Of a stretch of 64,000 nt of DNA, positions 22,176-61,395 are shown one piece after another. The stretch comes from Isoetes taiwanensis (taxonomy: Eukaryota > Streptophyta > Lycopodiopsida > Isoetales > Isoetaceae). The translations under genes and the position numbers were made by a program. How positions within the stretch are numbered: position 1 is the first letter of the stretch; every line of letters starts with the position of its first letter. Where the stretch lies: NCBI GenBank assembly GCA_021234155.1, contig JAJEKV010000060.1, positions 8,330,323 to 8,394,322 on the forward strand, written 5' to 3'. A model generated the notes under the pieces. That model was not told where the DNA came from and did no database searches. It worked only from the letters and a program-made list of their open reading frames with translations.

Positions 22176-22912
22176 CCAAACTAGCTGCAGATACTATCTT
22201 TTAATGCGAGAATTTTTGCCTTTTTTTATTTATTTAAATTTTTCGTGCTATTTTTTTCTGTTTTTCTGTGTTTCTTTTCTCAGTTTTTGCATGTTTTCTT
22301 TTTTCTTTTTGTTCTTTCATGTTTTCTTTTCCAGAAATATTGACACTATCTTTAACTAGTGTATGAATTGAGATCTAATTATACAGCTCTAGATCCTTGC
22401 TTAGCTTTAGATTGTTTTATACAAACTAGTCAGGTTGATCTTAACACTGATGAAAAATATGTTAAAACTAGAGGGATGACTATTCTTGAATATTCTACCT
22501 TCGATTGGTACAACAATTAATAACTTTAAGATGAATAATTTAATGAAAGATAAATGATAATTTGGCCTGATCGTTGGAATGTAGAGCTCAGATCTAGGGC
22601 TCTAATAATAATCTTTGTGAATAGCTAAATGGTAGACGAAATAATCTAGGGTACTCTCTAATAAGGTATAACTGGTTATGATCTTGAAAGTTGAGCTCTA
22701 TTACTACTTTAGCTATCCTTTGTCTAAATGGGAAAGGCTTTTTTCATGTAGAACTATTAGAATGATTCATAAGGAAATAATCCATTGGTGCAGATATTAG
22801 GCCTAGATCCATTATATTTATATATTTGAAAGTAGATATAGGTGCTTTAGATTTGACACTACAATTTTCATAATTTTGCTACGCAGAAAGGAGGTTAATT
22901 ATTTTGCATATA
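22176..22912. other. AT-rich, pyrimidine-rich stretch without a gene
   Basis: 22250-22335 mirrors the A-rich tract at 3120-3275. The rest up to the gypsy-1 LTR shows no coding signal. Confidence 0.5.
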
Positions 22913-25656
22913 TGTTGAAGGTGTTCCTGGCAAAACCTTTAACCTCAGTGGTTTAGAACCTCCAGGTTGCTTGAGGAAACCACTCTGAGTGCAAATAATC
23001 CAAGAAGAAAGCTCAAACATATATTAAGAACAGCTTTCCCAAAAGACAAAAAAGTCTGGCTTGCTAAAATGCATGCCAAATGCAAAGTAATTGGATTTTG
23101 TTCCTGATTCTTGATTCTAGAACTGCTCAAGACCTTGAAGTATATTGGCAAAAAAGTCAGATGGATTTTGATGATGGCAAGCTTCTCAAATAAGCAACCC
23201 TGACTGGGTCAATTTTTGGTCAATATCCCTGGCAGAGAGCTAGAATTTTCAGCTCGATAAAGGTGGCTCTTTATTGAGATCTGAGACTTCTAACACTCTC
23301 TGAAATGCCTGCATACAATGTTCCTGAAAGTTCTTTTGCAGAAAAGTGTGTCTCAGTATGAATTTTTTTATTTTCCTGACAACTGCCTGCTATGAGATAA
23401 TAACAGTAAATGAATTTGCGTTTGCTAGATATTCAAATGCTGCTTTTTTTGCTATTTTATAGAATATCAATGCCTAGGGTGCTTGAGAAAGGATTGGCAA
23501 ACTTCACTTGATCAGAATATGAGTACGGATTTTGCACTTAACAGATCCTTAAATCTATGGAACAGACTTTGATGTGTGCAAATGAATCAAGCAGGCTCAA
23601 TAATTCTCATCTATCTGTGCTACAAATGTTCATATGCAATACTTCTACTATTCTTCTATTGCTAAATGAGATGCAAAGACTCAATAAGGTATGAAAATGA
23701 TTTCAGTCATGCAAATCAGTAGAAATTAGTCACAAATTTTTCAACAAAGCTCGGATTTTCATTTAACTCAGTGTCACACAAGCAAACAATAATGATCCCA
23801 AGCTCTAAGTCTTGGGCACAGGATTCAAAAGGTACACAATCAAGCAAATAACATAAATTTCTCAGTAATTCAAGTCGAATAGGATGTTTGGAAGGCGGAA
23901 TGAAGCTCCAGATCTTCAAGCTGGTCCTTCTTCAAGGTAATCAATCACTCTTTCACCTCAAAGCCCTCGGTCTTTCTCTGAGCACAAAAGCCCCTTTTAA
24001 AATTCCTCTGTTTTGTTCCAATCTTGGCTAATTCGGTTTGATTCTCTGTCTTTTTGCTTCTGTGGTGCATTCTTGTCATTATACAGGGTAATTCGACAGC
24101 TTAGAGTCATGATTGCATGGTTGTTTCAGGCGAATTAGACGAATCTTGGCATTGTCCGGATTTACGGTTCTTGGCAATTCTGGTGAATATCCCACAGGCC
24201 CAACTCGATCTGGCAGATCAAGGTATATAACAACAAATAAATCGATTATTATAAAGATTTACGTGTAATATCCACGTGGGCCTCGGTACCTCCACCGCCC
24301 CACACGCCCAGATGTTCCACGTGGCAAGGGGTGATTGGCTAAGGAAAATAGGCTTTTGTTGGGGGGGTGTGGTAGATAGGACAATTTTTTTTGCAACATA
24401 GGCGCGATTCCCAAAAAACCAAATTTGAAGGCCAAGATGAACGATTTCTTTTATTTCCTTTTTTGCTAAAATGATCTTTTTTATGCTCTAGAAGATGCTG
24501 GAATATTTTTTTGCAAATGAGCACTTTTGAATTTTGGCCTTATAATGGTGTTTATGGAAGGTGATGTGGCAAAAGGGCATGATGAGTTGGCAACGTAATG
24601 GTGACATGGCAAATAAGGGTGGTGAGGTGTCAAACAACTTGGCTAAGAATATTTTTTCTAGTCAAAACTTTGGATGAGGTGGACATGATGTGTATGACAT
24701 GTAGATGATGATGTGGAGGTGTTGGTGATGATGTGGCATGATGATGTGTCTCCCTTAAGGTTTCAAAGATGTAATTTGAAGAACTTTGCAAAAAGTAGAA
24801 TTTCAATGGGAAGACACGTGCATGGTATGACATGGCAATGTGAATGACATGTATGGTGACTTAGCCTCTTTAGAGTGTTGTCATAGGTCAATTTAGGCAT
24901 TAATGCATGTAATTTGCATTTTCTAGGCAAATTTTGACTTTGGGTGCTTCCCTTAGAAATTTTGCATTCTTTCTCTTCTTTTGACTTATAGGGAGAAGAA
25001 GTTGACCTTTGACCATATGTATGACCAAGTCAAGAGGAATTTTTGTGCTTTGAATGATATGGTGATGGCATGGCAAGTGTGTGGAATGTGAATGACATGT
25101 AAAGAGGAAGTTTTGACTAGAAAAAATCTTCAAGGCCAAATTGACCTGGGAGATGAAATGTAGGCATGGAACTTGAGATCTCATGAGCATTTCTTCATGG
25201 AAAAGGGTATGGAGGATGTAGGATGGGAATCAAAGGGTGTAATTATGCCAAGAACTCAAATGATAGCATCACATACCAGGAACTCTTTAAGGGATCTTCA
25301 AATCTTCAAACTTTGCTTGATTCTCCTTCATGTATTGCTTGTGTGACCTAAGTCAAACGTCCTCACCTTGCTCTTCAAGACTTCAAAGTGTGCAAATATG
25401 AATTCTCCTTGTATCTCTAAGTTCAAATCAAAGTGTGAGCATAGAAATGTGAAATGTGCCTTGCTCTTCCATGCTGCCATAGCATGGCAGCAATATCATA
25501 TACTTACATAGGGTGCTTTTCGAAAATTGAGAGCTTAGAATGCATTTTAATCCTTGCTCAGAATTGTTGCCTCTTCTCTTGATTATACCCTCCCTCAGAC
25601 TAAAATAAATGTGTGGTCAGCTTTTGATTGCTATCTCACAACTATGATATGCAACA
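22913..25656 (-). repeat. Gypsy-1 left LTR (3' LTR in element orientation)
   Basis: Starts TGTTGAAGGTGTTCC, ends ATGCAACA. It is uninterrupted and serves as the template for recognising the fragmented right LTR. Numerous point differences from the right copy show that the insertion is not recent. Confidence 0.85.
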
Positions 25657-26697
25657 TGTTTTTTTTTTGTCAAAGGATGTGCAGATGGCATTAATGATTT
25701 TGTCAAAGGATTCCTGACACTCTTCATTCCAATCAACCAGAATATGCTTGCTTTCACTCTTGGAAAATTTCCCAACCTTTGTGAGGTTAGAAATTGGATT
25801 CATAATGTGTGAGAAGTGAGGGATATACATTGTCAAAAAACTAGTCATTCCCATGAAGCTTTTTACCTATTTGAGTGTTTTGGGAGGTGCTAACTTTTTT
25901 AAAGCCTCAACCTTGGCTTCAGCCACTTGAATGCCTTTTGTAGACACAACATGCCCAAGCAATTCTCCTTTTGAACACAAGAAAACACATTTTTTTGGAT
26001 TTAAACTGACTCCTCCTTTTTTGCACAAGGCAAATAACTTAGTTAGAACCTCAAAATGACTTTTGAGAGAGGTTCCTAAGCAAAGATCATCCAAGAAGAC
26101 ACGAAAAGCATTAGTAGGCATGTCTTTGAAAATGGTGTGCATAGCTCTTTGGAAAGTTGCAGATGCATTCATTAATCCAAAGGGCATCCTTTTCATGGCA
26201 AATGTTCCCCATGGTGTAATGAATGAGGTCTTTGGCTGATTCTCCTCCCTTATGCTTATTTGGTTGAAACTTGAGAAACCATCTAAAAAAGAATATATAT
26301 CTTTACGTGCAACAGCATGCAAGACTACTTCTAAAAATGGTAAGGGGTAACAATCTTTGATGGTAGCTTTATTTAAGTCCCTATAGTCAATGCAAATCCT
26401 TATGGTTTTATTTTTCTTTTCTACTGGGACAATGCAAGATAGCCATTCAGGGTTTACAATCTCTGCAATCACACCTGCATCCTTCATTTTATACAACTCC
26501 TCTTTAATTAGGCCTAGCAAGGATGCATTAATTCTTCTGAGTTTTTGTACCACAGGTTTCATATCTTCCTTAATTTTTATCTCAAACTCACAAATACTTC
26601 TGACAACACCAACCAATTCATCATAGTCCCAAGCAAAAATATCCTTGCAATCATCAAAGAAATTAGTAACAAAGGTGTTATCTTCTTCTTTGAACAA
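25642..26697 (-). pseudogene. Gypsy-1 reverse transcriptase
   Basis: The frame from 26697 shows the RT order: IRICIDYRDLNKATIKDCYP, IYSFLDGFSSFNQISI, FITPWGTFAMKRMPFGLMNA, then FRVFLDDLCL with the catalytic Asp pair (FLDD for YxDD), and LGHVVSTKGIQV. A continuation (25854-25642) holds WNEECQESFDKI, the connection before RNase H. The coding sequence then runs directly into the LTR, so Ty3 RNase H and integrase are lost. A stop near 25866 and a frameshift at the upstream border with the RNase H frame make it a pseudogene. Confidence 0.85.
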
Positions 26698-29278: not shown

Positions 29279-30091
29279 TGTTGAAGGTATTCCTGGCAAA
29301 ACCTTCAACCTCAGTGGTTTAGAACCTCCAGGTTGCTTGAGGCAACCACTCTGATTGCAAATAATCCAAGAAGAAAGCTCAAACATATATTAAGAACAGC
29401 TTTCCCAAAAGACAAAAAGGTCTGCCTTGCTAAAATGCATGCCAAATGCAAAGTAATTGGATTTTGTTCCTGATTCTTGATTCTAGAACTGCTCAACACC
29501 TTGAAGGATATTGGAAAAAAAGGGAGATGGATTTTGATGATGGCAAGCTTCTCAAATAAGCAACCCTGACTGGGTCAATTTTTGGTCAATATCCCTGGCA
29601 GAGAGCTAGAATTTTCAACTCGATAAAGGTGGCTCTTTTTTGAGATTTGAGACTTCCAACACTCTCTAAAATGCCTGCACACAATGTTCCTGAAAGCCCT
29701 TTTGCAGAAAAGTGTGTCTCAATATGAGATTTTTGATTTTCTTGACAACTGCCTGCTATGAGATAATGCCAATGAATGAATTTGCGTTTGCTAGATATTC
29801 AAATGCTGCCTTTTTTGCTATTTTATAGAATATCAAAGCCTAGGGTGCTTGGGAAAGGATTGGCAAGCTTCACTTGATCAGAATATGAGTACGGATTTTG
29901 CACTTAACAGATCCTTCAATCTATGGAACAAACTTTGATGTGTGCAAATGAATCAAGCAGGCTCAATAATTCTCATCTATCTGTGCTACAAATGTTCATA
30001 TGCAATACTTCTGCTATTCTTCTATTGCTAAATGAGATGCAAAGACTCAATAAGGTATGAAAATGATCCCAGTCATGCAAATCAGTAGAAG
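29279..30091 (-). repeat. Gypsy-1 right LTR, piece 1
   Basis: Co-linear with 22913-23735. It stops at CAGTAGAA, where the 7.8-kb DNA transposon is inserted. Confidence 0.85.
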
Positions 30092-30115
30092 GCAAAAGTT
30101 TTGCTAGGGTGTCTT
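30092..30115 (+). repeat. Left TIR of the 7.8-kb transposon
   Basis: GGCAAAAGTTTTGCTAGGGT then GTCT. The last 12 bases are identical to the inverse of the right end. Confidence 0.8.
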
Positions 30116-30133
30116 ACATTTGGCCAAATGTAG
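30116..30133. repeat. Left subterminal palindrome
   Basis: TACATTTGGCCAAATGTA is a perfect 18-bp palindrome next to the left TIR. A similar TACATTATACATAATGTA lies inside the right TIR. Possible transposase binding sites. Confidence 0.6.
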
Positions 30134-30405
30134 AGTAAGAGATGTATCACATTTCAAATACATAACTGTTTTTTCAGTATGTACATAATAGCTATATTAA
30201 GGAATCTTTTTTTTTCGGAATTACTTGCCACATCAATTAAAACGCAATCATGAAGCAGATTTCAATTCCCGCCACTCTAACCACTCCAAGAAACGCCTGA
30301 ACGTTAGGAGAATTTTCCACTTTCTGGCTAAAACTTCGCCCAGCTCCAGGATTTCCCTCCTTCTTGCCAGAATTCCTCCAGCTAACCCTACACCACGCAA
30401 GAACC

Positions 30406-31319
30406 ATGATGAACAACGAAGTGGCGCAAGAAGATTGCAATATCGGGAATGTGACAAAGAAAATGAAGCGTAAGATTGATGAAATTTATAAATTTATATA
30501 TGATCAGGTTCAAGATTTACGTCCTGTGCAAAGGAGAGCTTTAGCAGTGAAAACTGTTCGGGATGAAAGGCTGCACTTCTTTTTTGAACCTGCCATTGGA
30601 GATCCAGCGCAAGCAATTGTGAAGGATACTATGCTACGGATATACTCTGCTTGCACTTTGCTGAGACAAAAGAAGTGCAAAATGGACAGAGTCATATGGG
30701 GGTGATGGCAGAAGACATTAACAGGGACCCTCGTTCAGCTTGTGAGACATTGCCTGGTACTCTAACCATACATTGTGTGTCTGCTATTAATCCAGCTGAC
30801 CCAACACTTGTCATGTATAGATCCCTGTCATGTTTTTGCAATGGTTGCTTGAATTTCAGATGGGGAGAATGTGAGAATCTCCAGCATTGTGGTGCGTGGA
30901 AGCTGCACAAACTGGAGCCTAGTTCGATCCAGGTCGACGAACAAGAAGAGCTAGTTGGTTTTTATGCAGCTGATGAGCAAGAACTATCCGATATACTCCA
31001 AATTGGAGACATATTTGCATCTTTTGCTGCTCCGGGGAATCATGAAAATGTTCCATACTTTGTCCTCCTATGCGTGAAGGAGATGCATATTCTTCAGGAA
31101 GATGTGATTGACGACGATGGAAATAGAATGCTTGCTGGGGTTATAGCTGGTCATTACTATCAACTGCTACAAGGCACAAACCACAAGTACAAGTTGTTGG
31201 ATGACAAAATAGTATTGGTACCAGCTGAATCTGTAATTGGAGCAAAGTTCACGATGCAGCAGGTCAAGCATGTTGAAGGGGGCACGTACAGCATATACGA
31301 TCACACGAGAGGTGCATGA
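30406..31319 (+). CDS. Cys-rich protein of the 7.8-kb transposon, possible transposase part
   Basis: The frame from ATG 30406 (MMNNEVAQEDCN) runs through RRALAVKTVRDERLHFFFEP to about 30670. There a one-base frame change (frameshift or hidden intron) leads to ETKEVQNGQSHMG and then an open frame to 31319. The second part has LPGTLTIHCVSA, MYRSLSCFCNGCLNFRWGEC, and ENLQHCGAWKL. The CxC..C....C.N...C pattern is probably a zinc-binding knuckle. It resembles, from memory, Cys-rich segments near the C-terminus of large proteins carried by eukaryotic DNA transposons. The tail is a globular domain (PYFVLLCVKEMHIL, GVIAGHYYQLLQGT). As the only plus-strand gene within the TIRs it is the best transposase candidate, but no catalytic triad is evident. 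Confidence 0.5.
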
Positions 31320-31758
31320 CATGCTTATATCAAGCCTACCTGAGATTGTTGAGTGCACATGACTAAGTTCTTGCCATCATGTTATGTTATGTTTCATATT
31401 TGCCATCATCTTCTGTTATGTTGAGAAAACTAGTCGATTGCTGCAAGTTTTTTCTTATTTACTTATTTTTTAATCTGAAGTGCATTTTGATACTTCAATT
31501 TCAGTATCACAGAATATCTTCTGTTTCCAAGCACAATGTATATCAGAAAGTACAAAATGTTCATCAATTGTTGCATGAAGAAGTTAAACTATTCTGTGAA
31601 CTTGTTCTGTTATAAAGGATATCAATAGCTTTTCTTTTGATTCATGAAACAAAGCAGAAAGTGGAACATGTATGGAGACAAAAACTCTTGTATTACATAT
31701 CACAAGATATACAACCTGGTCATATCAGATATGATGCCAATATATACAAGTATTAACA

Positions 31759-32504
31759 TTAAATTACATTCAAAATCTGGTCACATCCGATGTGAAGCCA
31801 GTACATACTATTCTGCTGTTTCAATATGTTACTTTCTTGCAGCTTGTCCATAGCCTGGACATGCCATCTCTGTCCTTGTAGCCCTCTGAAAGCATTTGCC
31901 TCCAGACAGCTGTTGTTAGTACATCGGTTGGATTGCGTAAAGGATTCTGCTTCACATACTGTTGCAGGGTCTGGTGCTATCAACAAACCCTCTAGCCATG
32001 GTTTCAGAAGTGTCAAGAGACCTGTGTCTTCAACATCACTTTCCTGCCATGAAGGTGGACATATGCAATTTTCGTTGGGATTGAAGAGCATCTTGTACTC
32101 GGAGTCGTTTACTATTAGTGTGTTGCTCTCATTCCTGTCTGGATACTTCTCGTATATAAACTCAATTGGCTTAAGATACAAAGGTTTGTCTTCAGAAGCT
32201 GCAATCCGGAAAGGCAGCTCCAAACAGTGGCTTCCATCAAAGGTGAACCTTAAGTCCCTTATCTGCGTCATTGTGAAGATTTTATCCACTACTCTTGTCC
32301 ATGGAGCTATTGATGACCATATTCCTACTTCAAAGTGTTCAAATACAAATTCGAGGAATTCGTCTAGGTGGGGCCTTAAAAACAACACTTTCTTGCCTAT
32401 TATGTCATAATTTCCAACTAGGTGATCATCTGATACCAAAGTCCTATGTATTTGTTTTTCCAAAACATTATTGATATCAAACACTATCAACCTTTTCTGT
32501 ACAC
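31759..32504 (-). CDS. FCP1/NIF-like HAD phosphatase homologue in the 7.8-kb transposon
   Basis: The exon starts after a GCAG acceptor at about 32504 and ends with TAA at 31759-31761. The beginning VQKRLIVFDINNVLEKQ corresponds to HAD motif I. FEVGIWSSIAPWTRVVDKIF fits motif II. LKPIEFIYEKYPDRNESNTL and IVNDSEYKMLFNPNENCICP fit motifs III-IV, with TLLKPWLEGLL at the end, as in the plant FCP1-homology family. In motif I the second Asp (DxDxT) is Asn, and the later DDSP motif reads NDSE; both argue against normal phosphatase activity. The N-terminal exon with the start codon was not identified. A gene captured from the host is plausible. Confidence 0.65.
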
Positions 32505-32644
32505 CTGCTATGAAAGAACATGCAATTTATCAATAAAGTATGGTGGAGTTGAATAAAAAGAGATTTTATTCATTAAAATTCAATGAAAAAATGTGTATTT
32601 TATAATCAAATAGTGTTTAGCAGTGACAAGGGGGATAGGCTTTC

Positions 32645-35600
32645 TCAGCCACATTTATTAGTACCAGGTGGTCTAATGGTTTCGGGTGCGATGTGAATGT
32701 GGTCTAACTCCTGAAGTAGTGCTCGGATGAGAACATCACGACGATCCTCCGCATACTTTGGCAAGAACCAGTTTCGGGTAATCTGCAGATGTGACAACAA
32801 TACTTACATAATAAGTATTGGAAACCATTTGTTTGCAAGACAAAAGACATGAGACACTCACATTGGTAGTTTTACCACACACGATTGTGTCTACAAACTT
32901 CTGCATATAAGCTGCAACATAGAGGCCACATGAATCCCCATCTTTCTGTTGTGGACACTTATGAACCTTCACAATTGATGAAAGGTTTTGTCCATGCTTC
33001 AAGAAAGTGGGACACTCGATACAACCGCATGCCATAGTGAGGATGTGGAGCCTGCAAAAGACCAGATCAACTTAGCAAATGAATGAAAGAAGCTGCTAAC
33101 ATGGTATCCAATCTACTCAATATCTCCATCATATAAAATTGTGGGAGTGAAAAAAAGGATGAGGTGTACAGGGGCAAAAAAATCCACGTCAGCAAGCTAG
33201 ATTAAAATGGAGGGCCAAGATTTCTTTAGGCAAAATAGGGCAATTTAGTGCCCGCCTATGCACGCGATCCTGCCTTCAGCACTTGATTGTGCAATTCTTA
33301 AGCTGCAATAGGCTTGCTGGAGTGGTGCGGTAGGCGCTTTATTCATTTGGACAGAGATTTGAAAGCGCCGATTGGAGTGGTCTTGTGCTGCAGAATCTTG
33401 TAAAATCGGCTTTTCTTTCCATTTCTTTTGTTTTGGATCAAGAACTGTGTGTCAGAAAGGTTTATGCGCATCTGAGTGTCTTGGTCTGTTCTTTTATAGA
33501 ATCCAGATCATATTCCATGCTTTTGCAGGTATTTTCTGGGGGTCCAAGGATTCAAGAAGCCCATAGCTGAGGCAGCGGGCAATTTAGGTTGTACAGAGGA
33601 AAGGGGCAGGGGCAGGGGATCTGGGGTGAAGGATTTAGGAGGAGGAAAATTTGGCTATTTGTGGGTTCAAATCCACATTCACAGGGTACTGTAGATCCAA
33701 TTTTCTTACATTGTCTGTGCACAAAGCTTAAGCTTAGGCAGATGTTCTTAGTTTGTGTGGAGGCTGCAGAACATTGTGTAGCGGCTGCTATCCTCTGGAC
33801 CTGTTTTTTGGTTGCAAGGCGCTCTTACCTGGTGGCGAAGGCTAATAATACCCTGTTTTCTTTACTTGCTTCCAGGCCACTGTTCACGCTAAAATCGCTA
33901 TTTTACACCATTACTTCTTGCATTCAAAATTTTGGTTGAAATTTTGATAGCCTTTGATCCGGCATAAATCAAGGAATATTCATGGTCACAGATAAAGAAT
34001 GATGCAAAGAAAATACGACCAATTGACTGACAACCTCAAAGACAGACACAATAACCACATCCTCTTGGTTGCCACGTTTCCAACGTGCTCAGTTATTTTA
34101 TCCGTTTATAAAATAACAAAAGTTGATTCTCAAATCTTTCTTTATTTACCTCCCAAACCTGACCAAATGTCAGTTTCCTCTTCGACGACCTTCAATAACA
34201 ATAACAGTTGCATTCTCACAGATGGAGAAATATAATTTAGAAAGAATGAATTCTGCTGTCAAGATGCATTCAGCATACTCTTATTTTATTTGGACTAAAT
34301 AACTCTTTACCATCATTTATCTAACATATCACTCACATCACCCCAAAAAAAAAAAAAAACCTTCGAACTATAGCGGCGGCAACGCCGCCGCACCATCACC
34401 TTGTACTTTAATAAAAGAAGATGTGAAATACAAAATACCTCTTAAGTGCAAGCATGTCAACGTCAATGTCCTCGGCAGAATTGAAGATCTAAATGTTGAT
34501 GGTGTTTTTACTCTTAGTAAGTGCCATGTTGAAGATGGCCAAAGTGTGATGTTCAGTAACATCACATAGCATTGGAATCATGATCCATCTGCACTTGAGC
34601 CAATTTATCCCTGTAAGAGCTCCCTTTACAATCTCTCTTCCACGCTCGGAGGCTGCCATAGATTTATCTTTTTTGCTTGCCTTGCAGTGTGCTGCAAATT
34701 CCATGAAGCTGTCCGGTGGGAAGAACCAGACGTCGGCGTTCTTATCATCTGGAACACAGAGCTGCAGGTACCTATAACAAGTTGAAAAGGATGAAATTAC
34801 TAACTTGACTTACACATACAAATGATTAAGTTCAAAGTCCAGTACCTGGCATACATATCCACATGCCGGTTGGAAAATTTTCCAACATCCATGTCCAGCA
34901 CATCTTGTTCAAATAAATAAGACTCCATTTCAGGCAAAGATCCTGGGAAGATCCTTGCCTTCTTCAGCTTCATCATTCGGTTGAGCAAAGCATCATATGG
35001 CATGTATTCAGAACTGCAGTCTGGGTTCAATGACCAGTACATTTACACAAATCATCTACATTCGTCTACTACTATCCATAGTATTTTAAAGTTTTTAACT
35101 TGGATACTAGATGTAAATAAAAATGTAAGATATGTAGATCAAGTTACCTGTAGAGATCATTCTTATGCTCTGCTGATACTGTTTTCTCGGAGTCAGTATC
35201 CATTTCCTTCCCTTCTTTTTCGGTTTCCTCACTCAGATTCTTCTTAGGTCCAGAATCCTCATCTTCAACCTCTCCTGATTTCGCATTGTCCTGAACTTCA
35301 ACCTCCTTTACTATGTCAGAAGCAAGATTTGACACAAACTTAAGAGTATCCTGCTCTTGTTCTTGACGCTCGGAAGATTCCTCTTGATTAGGACCTGTAA
35401 ACATAGGATGTCATGGACTTCTCTACTGCTATACACTGAAATAAAATGCTTTCTTACCTGTTTCTACTGCTTTAATTTTCTTCTTCTGTGCTTTTTTAGG
35501 CGTGGACTTCTTCTTTGGAGTCACATTTTTTGATGCTGCCTTTCCTTTTGCAGATGTGGCCTTAGCCTGCTCCCTCAATCTCTCGAGTTCCTCGTCATAA

Positions 35601-37557
35601 TCTGGAATGTCACCATGCAGACCTGAAGTGCCAGCCTCCTCAACTTGTATCACCGTAGGAATAGTGAGTTTGCTTTTTTCTTCAATCACTGCTTTCTTTC
35701 CCTCGGCTACATCTTGTACCTCAATGTTTTTTGGAACCTCCAAAACTGTGAAAACAGAACCAAGAATAAGAAATTGCTTCCTCAGACATAATGCAAAACA
35801 ATTTGAAAACAAGTGCACCTGATCTGTGGTGTAATTTCTGCTCAGTTGTTTTTTTTGCACTTTGAAGCTCTGAAAATAAATCACATAACAGTCAGATATC
35901 AGTCTCTAACTAATCAGTCTCTAATTATTCTGTTGAAAAATAGCAGTACATATTACTAGAACTGATTTACATTGAAGTACTTTGAATACATACACATGTA
36001 AACAACTATTTATCTAGATGGAATGTACATGTAATGTACATGAATGTGCTCCAATGTATGCACATGTACGCATCAGACATTACATAAAATACCTCTAAAT
36101 GTTCTGCCACACCTCCTAATTTTATGTATTTAAGTTCTACATCTAGGACCCTACACTGTGAATGTACAACATGTATGTAAGAAACACATATATGTATGAC
36201 ATGCAAGCCATGGAACTATAAGTATAAAATAACCAGTACACTCCTACATGCTGTAGCAAAACCTTAAGTGCAGCAATCTACATGTAAACGGATTCTACAT
36301 TGCAGTAATCCTGGGTGCAGCAAATTAAACATAAATCATGAAATACTGCTTACCTCCAGTGTACACACCCAAGATCTTTGAAATGTTTTCGTCCCATTTG
36401 CATGCTCTTGGGCAGGATAGTCCAGCAGAAATAGAATATGAGAAACAGAAGATATGAAATGAATGCTCGCATGGAGCAACTAGGATAGGTTCATTATTAG
36501 CAAAGCCATTACTACAAAACACACATCCATGCACAGATATGAATTTTGCTTCAGCTGGAGAGATCATTAAGCTTGTTTTGGGCTGAAGGAGAATCGCTGC
36601 AGAATGCATCATGTAATTATGCATATCATCAAGCCGTTTGCAGCACTCAAACTGAACTTTGTGAGCCTCCTCAAATTCTGCAATCCTCTTTTCACATAAC
36701 TCCTTTTCCCGAATGGCTTTCTCCAATGGCTCCTGAATTCTCTTCAGCATTTCTTCCTTCCTAGTTCTATCCCTCATCAAAAGGTCAACCTCCTGCTGCA
36801 CATTCTTGATGTCTCTCTTATTCTGCTTAGCGTCGTCGAGAACACCATTGATGTCTTCTTGTATCTGTGCTAGGTCCTCTTCATGTGCATCCTTTCTTCC
36901 TGAAATCTTATTTATATTGTCACGTAGTTCTGCCTGCTGAATTTTCAGTTCTTCAACCTTGGATGTGCTGCTAATTAACTCTCCATGACACTGCTGCAAC
37001 AGAGTTTCTGCAAATTCAAGTTCTTCCTTAGGGTAAAATCCTTGCTGAAATTTAGGAACCTTGGATGTGGATTTAGAGGTCCCAATTTCTTCTGTAATAG
37101 CAGATTCTTTTGCTCCTCCCTTTGCCAAATCTTTGGCCAAAACTTTAAAAGTATCCCAATCTACTTTTTTACCTGTCAATTGAAGGGCAAATGCACGAGC
37201 AAAGTACTCAGGTACATGACGATTTGTGACCTCCCGCTTACCAAAAACAATTTCATAATGTTTGTAGAAGTTCTCGGCCCACTCTGGCTTCACGCTAGAT
37301 TCTTTGAACCCCCATATGTCTTTGGGCCCCCACTGCTCGTCCATGATCTGTTGTAAATCTGGAAAAATTTCATCTGCATTGACACATCTTACATGCTTTG
37401 CTTCCACAACAACGGGTTCTTCACAAATAAGTCTTCTTTTTGGCCCTGGTTCCTCAAAAGCTTGAACCTTCCTCTTGTTTTTTTCGGCTTTCTTGCTAGA
37501 ATCGACTGTTTTCAAATTTTTGTTTAATCTGGGTGACTTCCGGGAGGCAAAAGGCAT
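32645..37557 (-). CDS. Coiled-coil / RING-like / Ulp1 (C48) protease gene of the 7.8-kb transposon
   Basis: Exons read on the minus strand: 37557-36355, a short one near 35870-35825, about 35745-35461, 35395-35149, about 35020-34846, about 34772-34438, 33046-32866 and 32782-32645 (stop). Exon 1 (from MPFASRKSPRLNKN) has a basic start, the YFARAFALQLTGKKVDWD block, a 130-residue coiled coil and a RING-like finger (GCVFCSNGF, PCEHSFHIFCFS, LSCPRAC). Middle exons are acidic or Lys-rich linkers (TPKKKSTPKKAQKKK). The last exons form an Ulp1 cysteine protease: FSNRHVDMYARYLQL, WFFPPDSFMEF, catalytic His in DVTEHHTLAIFNM, and the oxyanion/Cys motif QQKDGDSCGLY. An in-frame TAG (34487-34485) precedes IFNSAEDID, where the triad Asp appears as Asn. 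The design suggests removal of SUMO- or ubiquitin-like modifiers. Confidence 0.65.
33047..34437 (-). other. Large intron in the Ulp1 gene
   Basis: No protease exon is seen here. A perfect GCGGCGGC/GCCGCCGC hairpin lies at 34372-34390 beside a 15-A run. Open frames on the plus strand near 33370-33940 have no recognisable features. A small secondary insertion is possible. Confidence 0.45.
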
Positions 37558-37835
37558 CCATTGCTTGGATTTGGGCAAGGATTTCGAGGAAGAAGAACAA
37601 ATTACAGTCGAATTAGTTCGTTGATCACACAGAAACACAAGGAATTGGAACGGCGGCAAATTTTTTTCCTAAACAAGAAACACTTCGCAATCTCCCTCCG
37701 AAAAATTGCAATGAAGGTCCGTTCTGGTTGCCACTGCCACTCATAATTTTGAATTGCTGACGTGGCTACTCCTAATGATTACATATCCCACTTAACTAAA
37801 ATTCAAAAAAATAACAAAAACAGGTGCCTACATGC

Positions 37836-37855
37836 CCTACATTATACATAATGTA
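37836..37855. repeat. Right subterminal palindrome
   Basis: TACATTATACATAATGTA forms a near-perfect palindrome close to the right TIR and mirrors the palindrome at 30116-30133. Confidence 0.55.
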
Positions 37856-37869
37856 AGGGCATTTTTTTT

Positions 37870-37893
37870 AGACACCCTAGCTTTCTTTTACCC
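37870..37893 (-). repeat. Right TIR of the 7.8-kb transposon
   Basis: AGACACCCTAGCTTTCTTTT then ACCC, followed by target copy AGAA. The reverse complement shares GG..AAAAG and GCTAGGGTGTCT with the left end. Confidence 0.8.
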
Positions 37894-37897
37894 AGAA

Positions 37898-38321
37898 ATT
37901 AGTCACAAATTTCCAACAAAGCTCGGATTTTTATTTAACTCAGTGTCACACAAGCAAACAATAATGATCCCAAGCTCTAAGTCTTGGGCACAGTATTCAA
38001 AAGGTACACAATCAAGCAAATAACACAATTTTATCAGTAATTCATGTCGAATAAGATGTTTGGAAGGCGGAATCAAGCTCCAGATCTTCAAGCCGGTCCT
38101 TCTTCAAGAATATCAATCACTCTTTCACCTCAAAGCCCTCGGTCTTTCTCTGAGCGTAAAAGCCCCTTCTAAAATTCCTCTGTTCTGTTCCAATCTTGGT
38201 TAATTCGGTTCGATTCTCTGTCTTTTTGCTTCTGTGGTGCGTTCTTGTCATTATACAGGGTAATTCGGCAGCTTAGAGTCATGATTGCATGGTTGTTTCA
38301 GATGAATTAGACGGATCTTAA
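37898..38321 (-). repeat. Gypsy-1 right LTR, piece 2
   Basis: Continues piece 1 from ATTAGTCACAAATTT and is co-linear with about 23736-24150 of the left LTR. It is cut by gypsy-2 at the target CTTAA (38317-38321). Confidence 0.85.
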
Positions 38322-38902
38322 TGTTTGGGGTCTGGGTTCGGGAACTCCTGGAAGACAGCCCTCTGTGAGGACCCGTGGATCTAACAGGAGAGTCCGGGGG
38401 ACTATGTCACGCGGGATTTGCTGAAAGAGAAGAAAAAGAAGAGAACAGAGCAAATGAGAGAAAGATGATAAGCTTCCTTGATATCAATGATGAAAATACA
38501 TGAGCTCTCGCAATAGAGAGAAAACTGAAAGGAGACAAGACTCAAAACTCATCTAAAAACTTATGAGCTAACTCTACTCATATATATAGTACAATGGCCT
38601 TGGGCCCAATATAGACACTCCCCGATCGATCTCGGTGCCGACTCACGGAAGGAGGCCTGATTTGAGAATGTTGGCGGTGCCTCTTGAAGTGCCTAGAATC
38701 ACTTGGCCCGGCGACCTTGCGGTGGCGGGCCATCACTTGTCTGGCGCCTTGTTGACAAACCAAAGGCTTTGACTGCGTGGTCTGCTGCTGGTCTTCTGCG
38801 GAGCCTTGGATGTCTGACCCGTGGTTGACTGAGGATCCTTGAGCTTGACCTGGTCTGTCGTATGCATGAATAGTCCTGTACCAGGAGGCACAGGGACACT
38901 AA
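38322..38902 (-). repeat. Gypsy-2 3' LTR
   Basis: Starts TGTTTGGGGTCTGGG. Compared with the other LTR it differs by many short indels, often in GC-rich words. A TATATATA box on the minus strand at about 38578-38587 is kept in both LTRs. Confidence 0.85.
38578..38587 (-). promoter_or_regulatory. LTR TATA box of gypsy-2
   Basis: TATATATA on the minus strand. The same box occurs at about 49014-49021 in the 5' LTR and at about 58285-58293 in the related gypsy-3 LTR, which supports it as the core promoter. Confidence 0.45.
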
Positions 38903-48537: not shown

Positions 48538-48766
48538 GCTGGGGGGGAACCGGACGAGACCGACACGAGGGGGTGGGTGGCGCTGAATGAGCCTTAGACC
48601 AAGATGGCCTCCTCTATGTCATAAGCGCATCCATACATGTCGCGAATAAGCTTCCGACATGGCGCCCAAGCGAGAGGCCGCTGGAGAAAGGAGTTCTTCC
48701 GGCGTGAAATTACTTTACGCATATGGCTACGTAAGCAAGTAGGATAAAATCGCACCCGGCAGCGCA

Positions 48767-49345
48767 TGTTTGGGGGTCCGGGTTCGAACTCGGAAGACAC
48801 CTCTCCGTGAGGACCCGTGATCTAATAGAGAGTCCGGGGACTATGTCACGGGGATTTGGAAAGAGAAGAAAAAGAAGAGAACAGAGCAAATGAGAGAAAG
48901 ATGATAAGCTTCCTTGATATCAATGATGAAAATACATGAGCTCTAATAATAGAGAGAAAACTAAAGGAGACAAGACTCAAAACTCATCTAAAAACTTATG
49001 AGCTAACTCTACTCATATATATAGTACAATGGCCTTGGGCCCAATATAGACACTCGACCGATCTCGGTGCCGACTCAAGGAGGCCCCGATTTGGGAAATG
49101 TTGGCGGTGCCTCTTGAAGTGCCTAGAATCACGCCGACGGCCGGCCCGGGCGGTGACGACGCCATCACTTGTCCGAGCGGCGCCTCTTGTTGACAGCCAA
49201 AGGCTTTGACTACGCGTGGTCTGCCCGCTTGGTCTTCTGGAGCCTTGGATGTCCGACCCGTGGTTGGCCGAGGATCCTTGAGCTTGACCTGGTCTTACAT
49301 TTGTATGCATGAATAGTCCCGTGCCGGGAGAGGCAGGGACTAACA
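48767..49345 (-). repeat. Gypsy-2 5' LTR
   Basis: TGTTTGGGGGTCCGGGTTCG to GGCAGGGACTAACA, followed by CTTAA. Upstream on the plus strand CGCACCCGGCAGCGCA touches the LTR and should be the primer-binding site, but I could not match it to a specific tRNA. Confidence 0.85.
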
Positions 49346-49350
49346 CTTAA

Positions 49351-50861
49351 CATTGCCCGGATTTAGGGTTCTTGGCAGTTCTGGTGAAATATCCCACAGG
49401 CCCAACTCGATCTGGCAGCTTAAGGTATATAACAACAAATAAATCAATTATTATTAAGATTTACATGTAATATCCACGTGGGCCTCAGTACCTCCACCGC
49501 CCCACATGCCCGGATGTTCCACGTGGCAAGGGGTGATTGGTTAAGGAAAATAGGTTTTTTTTTTTTTGGGGTAGATAGGACTTTTTTTTTGCAACATAGG
49601 CCAAGGCGCGATTTCCAAGGAACCAAAGTTGAAGGCCAAGATGAACGATTTTTTTTATTTCCTTTTTTGTTAAAAGGATCTTTTTTATGCTCTAGAAGAT
49701 GCTGGAATCTTTTTTTGCAAATGAGCACTTTTGGATTTTGGCCTTATAATGGTGTGTATGGAAGGTGATGTGGCAAAAGGGCATGATGAGTTGGCAATGT
49801 AATGGTGACATGGCAAATAAGGGTGGTGAGGTGTCAAACAACTTGGCTAAGAATATTTTTTCTAGTCAAAACTTTGGATGAGGTGGACATGATGTGTATG
49901 ACATGTAGATGATGATGTGGAGGTGTTGGTGATGATGTGGCATGATGATGTGTCTTTCTTAAGGTTTCAAACATGTAATTTGAAGAACTTTGCAAAAAAT
50001 AGAATTTCAATGGGGAGACACGTGCATCGTATGACATGACAATGTGGATGACATGTATGGTGACTTGGCCTCTTTAAAGTGTTGTCATAGGTCAATTTAG
50101 GCATTAATGCATGTAATTTGCATTTTCTAGGCAAATTTTGACTTTGGGTGCTTCTCTTAGGAATTTTGCATTCTCTCTCTTCTTTTGACTTATAGGGAGA
50201 GGAAGTTGACCTTTGACCATATGTATGACCAAGTCAAGAGGATTTTTTGTGCTTTGAATGACATGGTGATGGCATGGCAAGTGTGTGGAATGTGAATGAC
50301 ATGTAAAGGGGAAGTTTTGACTAGAAAAAATCTTCAAGGCCAAATTGACTTAGAAGATGAAATGTAGGCATGGAACTTGAGATCTCATGAGCATTTCTTC
50401 ATGGCAAAGGGTATGGAGGATGTAGGATCAGAATCAAAGGTTGTAATTATGCCAAGAACTCAAATGATAGCATCACATACCAGGAACTCTTTAAGGGGTC
50501 TTCAAATCTTCAAACTTTGCTTGCTTCTCCTTCATGTATTGCTTGTGTGACCTAAGTCAAACGTCCTCACCTTGCTCTTCAAGACTTCAAAGTGTGCAAA
50601 TATGAATTCTCCTTGTATCTCTAAGTTAAAATCAAAGTGTGAGCATAGAAATGTGAAATGTGCCTTGCTCTTTCCATGCTGCCATAGCATGGCAGCAATA
50701 TCATATACTTACATAGGGTGCTTTTCGAAAATTAAGAGCTTAGAATGCATTTTAATCCTTGCTTTGAATTGTTGCCTCTTCTCTTGATTATATGCTCCCT
50801 CAGACTAAAATAAATGTGTGGTCAGCTTTTGATTGCTATCTCGCAACTATGATATGCAACA
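49351..50861 (-). repeat. Gypsy-1 right LTR, piece 3
   Basis: Resumes at CATTGCCCGGATTTAGGGTT and is co-linear with the left LTR from about 24150 to its end GATATGCAACA at 50861. Confidence 0.85.
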
Positions 50862-50977
50862 TGTTTTTGTTTTTGTTTCTCCATATCTATTCTGTTTTCA
50901 TTGTTTTTTTCCTCTTTTTTTCGCGGTTTCTTTCCCTAAATTTTGATGTATAACCCTAGCGCATGTTGGTTGCAGGT

Positions 50978-60404: not shown

Positions 60405-61040
60405 TGTTAGGATCAACAATGTCTAGCTAACTCAAATTATTCTTTGACAATGCAACTTTGAATTATATTCAAAGTGAAGTTATAACTCATACAACCATTG
60501 AAAAATGAAAGAGAACTTTAATCAATGTATTGATAACTATCCGACAGCTCGAGCATTCATATTTCTTATGAATCCATTACATCCGAATGAGTTTATCTGT
60601 CTATTCTCCTTCCATTTAAGTTCAGGCTCCGATCCACAAGGAATCGGCACCGATCAAGCCACTATCGGCCCGCTACATTCTAAGTTTGAATTGGAGCTTG
60701 GCGGATTCTCATTCGACCGAGAATGAGAATTATTTCCATCAAATAAACCTAAGGTTCATACCCCATCAATGTTAACCATTGAACCATACCTTTGATCATC
60801 ACAGTTCTTAGCCACTACCACTAGATGACTAACAGCCTGCAACTTTGTCCATGTTTTTCACAATGCTTAGGTATCACAGATATGTCTATCACAATCTGTA
60901 TCTTCCCCTTTTTTTTATGATCTCAGGCTGTCAACATAAGAACCTATAATGAGTCTGTATTCAGCACTTTATAAGAATTATCTTAATTCACCACTGTAAA
61001 TCATTCAAGCATTATTATAATATGAACCTTAACTCTCACA
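60405..61040 (-). repeat. Copia 3' LTR
   Basis: 636 bases, TG...CA ends. The next LTR lies outside the window. Confidence 0.75.
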
Positions 61041-61358
61041 TTCCCCTTTCATATTATAATCTCTGCAACTTATTAGCCTCCTCAAAAGTCTGAACCTTGC
61101 ATCTGCCAGTGGCTTAGTAAGAATATCTGCCAGTTGCTGATCTGTATGCACATATTGAACATGTATAATATTTTCATTACTAAATCCCTGATGAACCTTA
61201 ACTCTCACATTCCCCTTTCATATTATAATCTCTGCAACTTATTAGCCTCCTCAAAAGTCTGAACCTTGCATCTGCCAGTGGCTTAGTAAGAATATCTGCC
61301 AGTTGCTGATCTGTATGCACATATTGAACATGTATAATATTTTTATTTACTAATCCCT
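61022..61358. repeat. 169-bp tandem duplication across the copia LTR/PPT border
   Basis: ATGAACCTTAACTCTCACAT starts at 61022 and again at 61191; both copies end in TCCCTG followed by ATGAA. The unit covers the last 19 bases of the LTR, the polypurine tract and about 140 bases of internal DNA. Confidence 0.85.
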
Positions 61359-61395
61359 GATGAAATGTGCCTCCAATTCAATATGCTTAGTTCTC

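Follow-up and report, generated by a model that had tools for sequence, protein, structure and literature searches.

What kind of element interrupts a long terminal repeat (LTR) of a retroelement in Isoetes taiwanensis, and do the genes it carries belong to it? The locus lies in a 64,000-nucleotide stretch of contig JAJEKV010000060.1 (positions 8,330,323 to 8,394,322 of the forward strand), referred to here as the window. The interrupting element is a member of a genuine transposon family that encodes its own transposase and also carries an accessory gene that is conserved. Our preferred reading, to which we give a probability of about 0.5, is that the window holds a defective copy of a DDE transposon family whose conserved RING-like, Ulp1 and NIF parts are likely the family's own anti-silencing factor.

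Insertion site and ends of the element

The element occupies 30091-37893 within one LTR, and the sister LTR (22912-24147) is uninterrupted, lacks the element and carries a single AGAA. The features that define the insertion are as follows.

30091-37893, no strand: DNA transposon, internally deleted copy of 7,803 bp, both ends repeated in the genome, sister site empty
30087-30090, no strand: AGAA target site duplication, left
37894-37897, no strand: AGAA target site duplication, right
23721-23724, no strand: unoccupied site with one AGAA in the sister LTR
30091-30114, plus strand: left inverted repeat, deviating in the window copy over its first 12 bases
37870-37893, minus strand: right inverted repeat

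An earlier note on this DNA had described an exactly bounded DNA transposon with a perfect 12-bp core in its terminal inverted repeats and a 4-bp AGAA duplication recognizable against the intact sister LTR. This description holds, with the left end moved from 30092 to 30091: the core GCTAGGGTGTCT is perfect at both ends of the window copy, and AGAA is present on both flanks and once in the sister LTR. The outermost left bases (30091-30102) read GGCAAAAGTTTT and deviate from the family end GGGTAAAAGAAAGCTAGGGTGTCT despite the perfect duplication. With 61 substitutions between them, the two LTRs retain 95% identity, which implies that the transposon arrived later than the retroelement, itself not very recent.

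Copies elsewhere in the genome

A search of the window's own genome with the element's ends had been suggested beforehand. With a 109-bp left-end query and a 141-bp right-end query, the best 40 of 290 and of 289 candidates, respectively, were scored, the window included in each case. Both ends recur at at least 39 further places, giving at least 40 places per end, and this recurrence means that the repeat structure seen in the window is not due to chance. Twenty of the 39 other left-end places were examined as 10-kb stretches (L009-L028). The left end is exactly GGGTAAAAGAAAGCTAGGGTGTCT in 17 of these 20 copies, with deviations in L015, L020 and L021. In eight stretches both ends are present, separated by 8.9-9.5 kb, and L020, L025 and L026 show minor repeat changes; six of these eight two-ended copies are flanked by perfect 4-bp duplications (TGTT, ATGA, ACTA, GACA, ACCA, TTGA), and the remaining two, L009 and L020, have none.

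One copy, L030, represents another subfamily. Its DNA is 75% identical to L022 across its length and its ends are of a variant form, GGTAAAAGAATGCTACGGTGTC, the first base of L030 lying outside the stretch. As assembled, L030 is damaged: it has its own TAG in the same Ulp1 exon that is interrupted in the window copy, and its reading frame shifts in both the transposase and the first accessory exon. Several places matching the NIF and coiled-coil/RING parts have long open frames, and no copy was demonstrated to be intact throughout. Insertions and deletions between the L009-L028 copies concentrate near CG and C[ACT]G sites, the pattern that nanopore errors at methylated cytosines would leave in repeats beyond the reach of short-read polishing. 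Frameshifts that appear in the main-subfamily copies are thus unreliable, and the substitution ratios calculated from that set are noisy.

A DDE transposase with a predicted BAH-like domain

The view that the element lacks a transposase of its own is not supported: one of the three genes counted in the earlier note is a transposase remnant.

30406-31316, plus strand: transposase remnant, consisting of an N-terminal part, a core deletion, and a C-terminal part with a cysteine cluster and a BAH-like domain

Compared with other copies, the window copy is missing ~2.1 kb near 30636-30644 (between element positions 547 and 554), and in those copies the missing segment contains the transposase catalytic core. 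There is also a frame change near 30700. Judged from its sequence, no active transposase can come from the window copy. The family transposase has three conserved catalytic acids and a predicted RNase-H fold with a strong match, the fold matches being to general DDE cores. Comparison with Pfam gave no integrase match, only OPA3 at a chance-level E of 0.13. The C-terminus is predicted to be a BAH-like chromatin-reading domain. Inverted repeats, a target duplication of fixed length and an RNase-H fold with three acids together mark the family as a DDE/D transposon. A distant family (L040:1-8001) has a transposase of the same type, in an open frame of 630 residues, and no accessory gene is visible beside it; this transposase type seems to be very abundant in the genome.

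Predicted structure of the accessory gene

The remaining coding sequence of the element lies on the minus strand, converging on the transposase gene.

36354-37557, minus strand: first exon, with basic N-terminus, coiled coil and RING-like finger
35148-35869, minus strand: three linker exons (35869-35819, 35745-35458, 35394-35148), of which the two measured are weakly constrained
34846-35013, minus strand: exon upstream of the Ulp1 core
34439-34771, minus strand: Ulp1 exon with the histidine and an in-frame TAG
33124-34408, no strand: 1,285-bp insertion within an intron of the Ulp1 part, absent from the compared copies
32862-33051, minus strand: Ulp1 exon with the Q..C residues (CPQQKDGDSCG)
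32665-32782, minus strand: final Ulp1 exon as far as the proposed donor; alternative stop at 32645-32647
31762-32504, minus strand: NIF (FCP1-like) exon, with its tail in another frame than in L030 and L031
31421-31590, no strand: single ~183-bp repeat unit, lying where the 3' ends of the two genes converge

The exon chain has GT-AG borders and encodes 872 residues when read across one in-frame TAG, leading from a basic N-terminus and a coiled coil through the RING-like finger and a linker to the Ulp1 domain. Every join keeps its phase once the acceptor of the exon starting at 35013 is shifted by 7 bases. Among readable copies the TAG is confined to the window, the position being Gln or Arg in all ten others (three are unreadable). 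The NIF exon is not preceded by an in-frame start codon of its own, and the phase of its acceptor matches that of the donor proposed within the last Ulp1 exon, giving about 1,114 residues in the window. The RING, Ulp1 and NIF parts are predicted to be joined by splicing into a single protein of about 1,100 residues. The stop directly after the proposed donor is kept in L030 as well, which leaves room for separate or alternative products. The frame change in the NIF tail of the window copy was judged by eye against L031 and L030.

The three genes proposed earlier thus become a transposase remnant on the plus strand and, most likely, one RING-Ulp1-NIF gene in place of two on the minus strand. 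Two of the three domains assigned to the cargo are firm, Peptidase_C48 (E 9.8e-6) and NIF (E 1.1e-14) both scoring above the Pfam cut-off in the window and again in L030 (NIF E 5.9e-16). The RING part falls below its curated cut-off, zf-RING_11 reaching 22.9 bits against 27 in the window (E 6.7e-5) and 23.8 bits in L030, and the last ligand pair of this finger is C-x3-C. Among solved structures NIF matches UBLCP1 (E 7.3e-6) and a CTD small phosphatase-like protein (E 5.1e-5), and the sole match for Ulp1, a weak one, is SENP7 (E 0.099).

The ~183-bp unit is present three times in all eight two-ended copies, in L028 and in L030, once in the window copy, and once or twice in the other copies that have any. 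By analogy with the tandem repeats discussed below, the triple repeat is a candidate docking array for the accessory protein.

Helitrons usually end in CTRR. The insertion at 33124-34408 has no duplication, starts with TC if cut between A and T, and has an 8-bp GC hairpin ~12 bases from its other end; by these features it looks Helitron-like, though the CTRR end is absent. Beyond the element, the window contains two 1.5-kb stretches that are 95% identical (24150-25670 and 49351-50876) and a further pair at 87% identity (38321-38897 and 48766-49340), perhaps a second related retroelement, as well as a tandem pair of ~170-bp units at 61022-61364 with 98% identity.

Distribution of and selection on the cargo

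If the cargo belonged to the window copy alone, other copies with the same inverted repeats would lack it. All seven tested pieces, the protease, RING-like and NIF parts among them, are present in the same order and on the same strand in all eight two-ended copies, in L027 (whose right end is lost) and in L030. In the other 11 of the 20, at least one piece is absent from the stretch examined: none is present in L021, only the transposase in L013 and L014, and L017 has no transposase. A NIF match lies inside 19 of the best 40 left ends and 21 of the best 40 right ends. NIF has at least 150 genome places (4,526 candidates), as has the coiled-coil/RING part (1,564 candidates).

Whether the same genes also sit in host loci without inverted repeats was answered in part. 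Thirty-six of 150 listed NIF matches are tied to one of 80 listed ends, the others belonging to ends outside that list or to none, and a diverged NIF with the same active-site motif as the element (L029:4658-5281, 51% identical) stands in a 10-kb stretch with no Ulp1, RING or transposase of the element's family. This NIF is perhaps the remains of a third subfamily. The same stretch contains a separate 2.4-kb family (L029:2032-4462) with at least 150 genome places, whose frame resembles a MULE-like or SWIM-type transposase by eye and has no Pfam match above cut-off.

Ratios of nonsynonymous to synonymous substitution (dN/dS) were calculated with our own NG86 script, dropping stops and masking codons near indels. 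Between the window copy and L030 the ratio is 0.26 for the C-terminal part of the transposase and 0.14 (0.10-0.20) for the coiled coil and RING; the three Ulp1 exons give 0.32, 0.20 and 0.26, with 0.67 for the short last exon and 0.30 pooled, NIF gives 0.32 (0.18-0.54), and the two linkers 0.79 and 0.68. Within the main subfamily the signal is weaker (transposase C-part 0.85, coiled-coil/RING 0.51, linker 0.85, Ulp1 0.79 and 0.40, NIF 0.53 and 0.41). From these sequence comparisons the protease, RING-like and NIF pieces look to be under selection.

Relation to known transposon families

The combination of genes had been thought possibly undescribed, and no transposon family with a RING-Ulp1-NIF gene set was found among the literature matches listed. 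Target duplications are ~9 bp in MULE and VANDAL elements, 8 bp in Zisupton/KDZ elements and 4 bp in Sola1. Zisupton/KDZ elements resemble the Isoetes element in being large with extra protease-type genes; their duplication length is not matched by its 4 bp. Sola1 shares with it the duplication length and a presence in early land plants, and we know of no Ulp1 or NIF gene in Sola1; membership in Sola1 is conceivable by duplication length. A VANDAL identity is rejected by the 4-bp duplication together with the inverted repeats.

Sola1 is entered for Physcomitrella in a table (PMC9033089), VANDALs are non-TIR MULEs of Arabidopsis whose Ulp1-carrying VANC genes (KIU, Kaonashi) demethylate their own elements (PMC13317346), and VANC targets often form tandem repeats (PMC5735166). 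The VANDAL/KIU system and the Isoetes element are alike in being plant DNA transposons with a separate conserved Ulp1 gene beside the transposase and tandem repeats outside the coding parts. They differ in that the Isoetes element has inverted repeats and a 4-bp duplication, a DDE transposase with a cysteine cluster, a BAH-like domain and no real Pfam match, and coiled-coil, RING-like and NIF modules added to Ulp1. Ginger1, as described in PMC2836005, has TGTNR termini, CCGG/CCGT targets and a Gypsy-type integrase with a zinc finger and GPY/F, and it carries Ulp1 on the transposase itself. It shares 4-bp duplications, a DDE transposase and an Ulp1 domain with the Isoetes element, whose ends are however GGGTAAAAG, whose duplications vary and whose Ulp1 lies on the opposite strand to the transposase. 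Measured against that description, a Ginger1 identity is rejected: the ends are not TGTNR, Ulp1 is off the transposase, and none of the duplications (AGAA, TGTT, ATGA, ACTA, GACA, ACCA, TTGA) is CCGG or CCGT.

Possible roles of the accessory protein

The main ground for an anti-silencing role is the parallel with the tandem-repeat targets of VANC and demethylation by KIU. In the mechanism we propose, the inverted repeats would be the cleavage sites of the transposase, which its BAH-like domain might guide to marked chromatin. The RING-Ulp1-NIF protein would act at the element on silencing factors bearing SUMO or ubiquitin, or on phosphorylated polymerase tails, with the triple ~183-bp repeat between the two converging genes as its docking array. 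The protein would thereby keep the family expressed, acting like the VANC/KIU proteins of Arabidopsis VANDAL elements. A more specific version, which we put forward only tentatively, is that a DDE lineage extending from algae to seed plants and molluscs, and unmatched here to a named superfamily, carries a fused BAH domain, and that a lycophyte branch added the RING-Ulp1-NIF protein, which would hit the ubiquitin, SUMO and phosphorylation layers of silencing while docked on the triple repeat.

The strongest competitor, itself rather unlikely, is that the accessory gene serves the transposition reaction or its repair, the Ulp1-like module loosening a SUMO-regulated repair or synaptic complex. 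Such a role has been proposed for the proteases of Ginger1 and of MULEs. It was raised as a possibility for the Ulp1 and OTU domains of Ginger1 and other transposons (PMC2836005), and it is consistent with the constant pairing of cargo and transposase in the eight two-ended copies. Against this, the related transposase of L040 has no visible cargo nearby, and the closest tested plant precedent works on methylation.

The active sites are unusual. The catalytic set of Ulp1/C48 proteases is His-Asp-Gln-Cys, and FCP1/NIF phosphatases have the motif D-x-D-x-[TV]. In the Isoetes family the Ulp1 His, Gln and Cys are kept, and the presumed Asp place, judged by eye, is Asn in all nine readable copies (7 of 14 rows plus L030 and L031). 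The NIF motif reads D-x-N, its second Asp replaced, in 15 of 15 rows and in L029, L030 and L031; aligned with DLDETL of 2hhl, it does not match D-x-D-x-[TV]. Since one canonical acid seems to be missing from both domains in every readable copy, enzyme activity cannot be assumed, and these constrained domains may bind rather than cut, or may use Asn. It is conceivable, if improbable, that the accessory protein works as a decoy or reader: its Ulp1 and NIF domains would have lost catalysis and would bind SUMO and phosphorylated tails, shielding the element or its transposase. The continued constraint on both altered domains would fit this, but the Ulp1 His, Gln and Cys and the first NIF Asp are retained, and papain-type proteases use Asn at the place corresponding to the Ulp1 Asp.

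Least probable is selfish capture, with host Ulp1, RING and NIF pieces as Pack-MULE-like passengers of no function for the element, which the host-type nature of NIF and Ulp1, the solitary NIF of L029 and main-subfamily ratios of 0.40-0.85 would favor, but which is disfavored by an identical gene set in eight two-ended copies and by ratios of 0.14-0.32 for coiled-coil/RING, Ulp1 and NIF across subfamilies 75% identical, as low as for the transposase part.

If the anti-silencing reading is correct, Ulp1-based counter-silencing would have arisen at least twice in plant transposons, on unrelated transposases, and SUMO would be a general weak point of transposon silencing. With two subfamilies 25% apart in DNA, a defined accessory gene and a candidate docking repeat, the family is a ready test system, and the BAH-like reader on its transposase would offer a testable route to chromatin-guided insertion.
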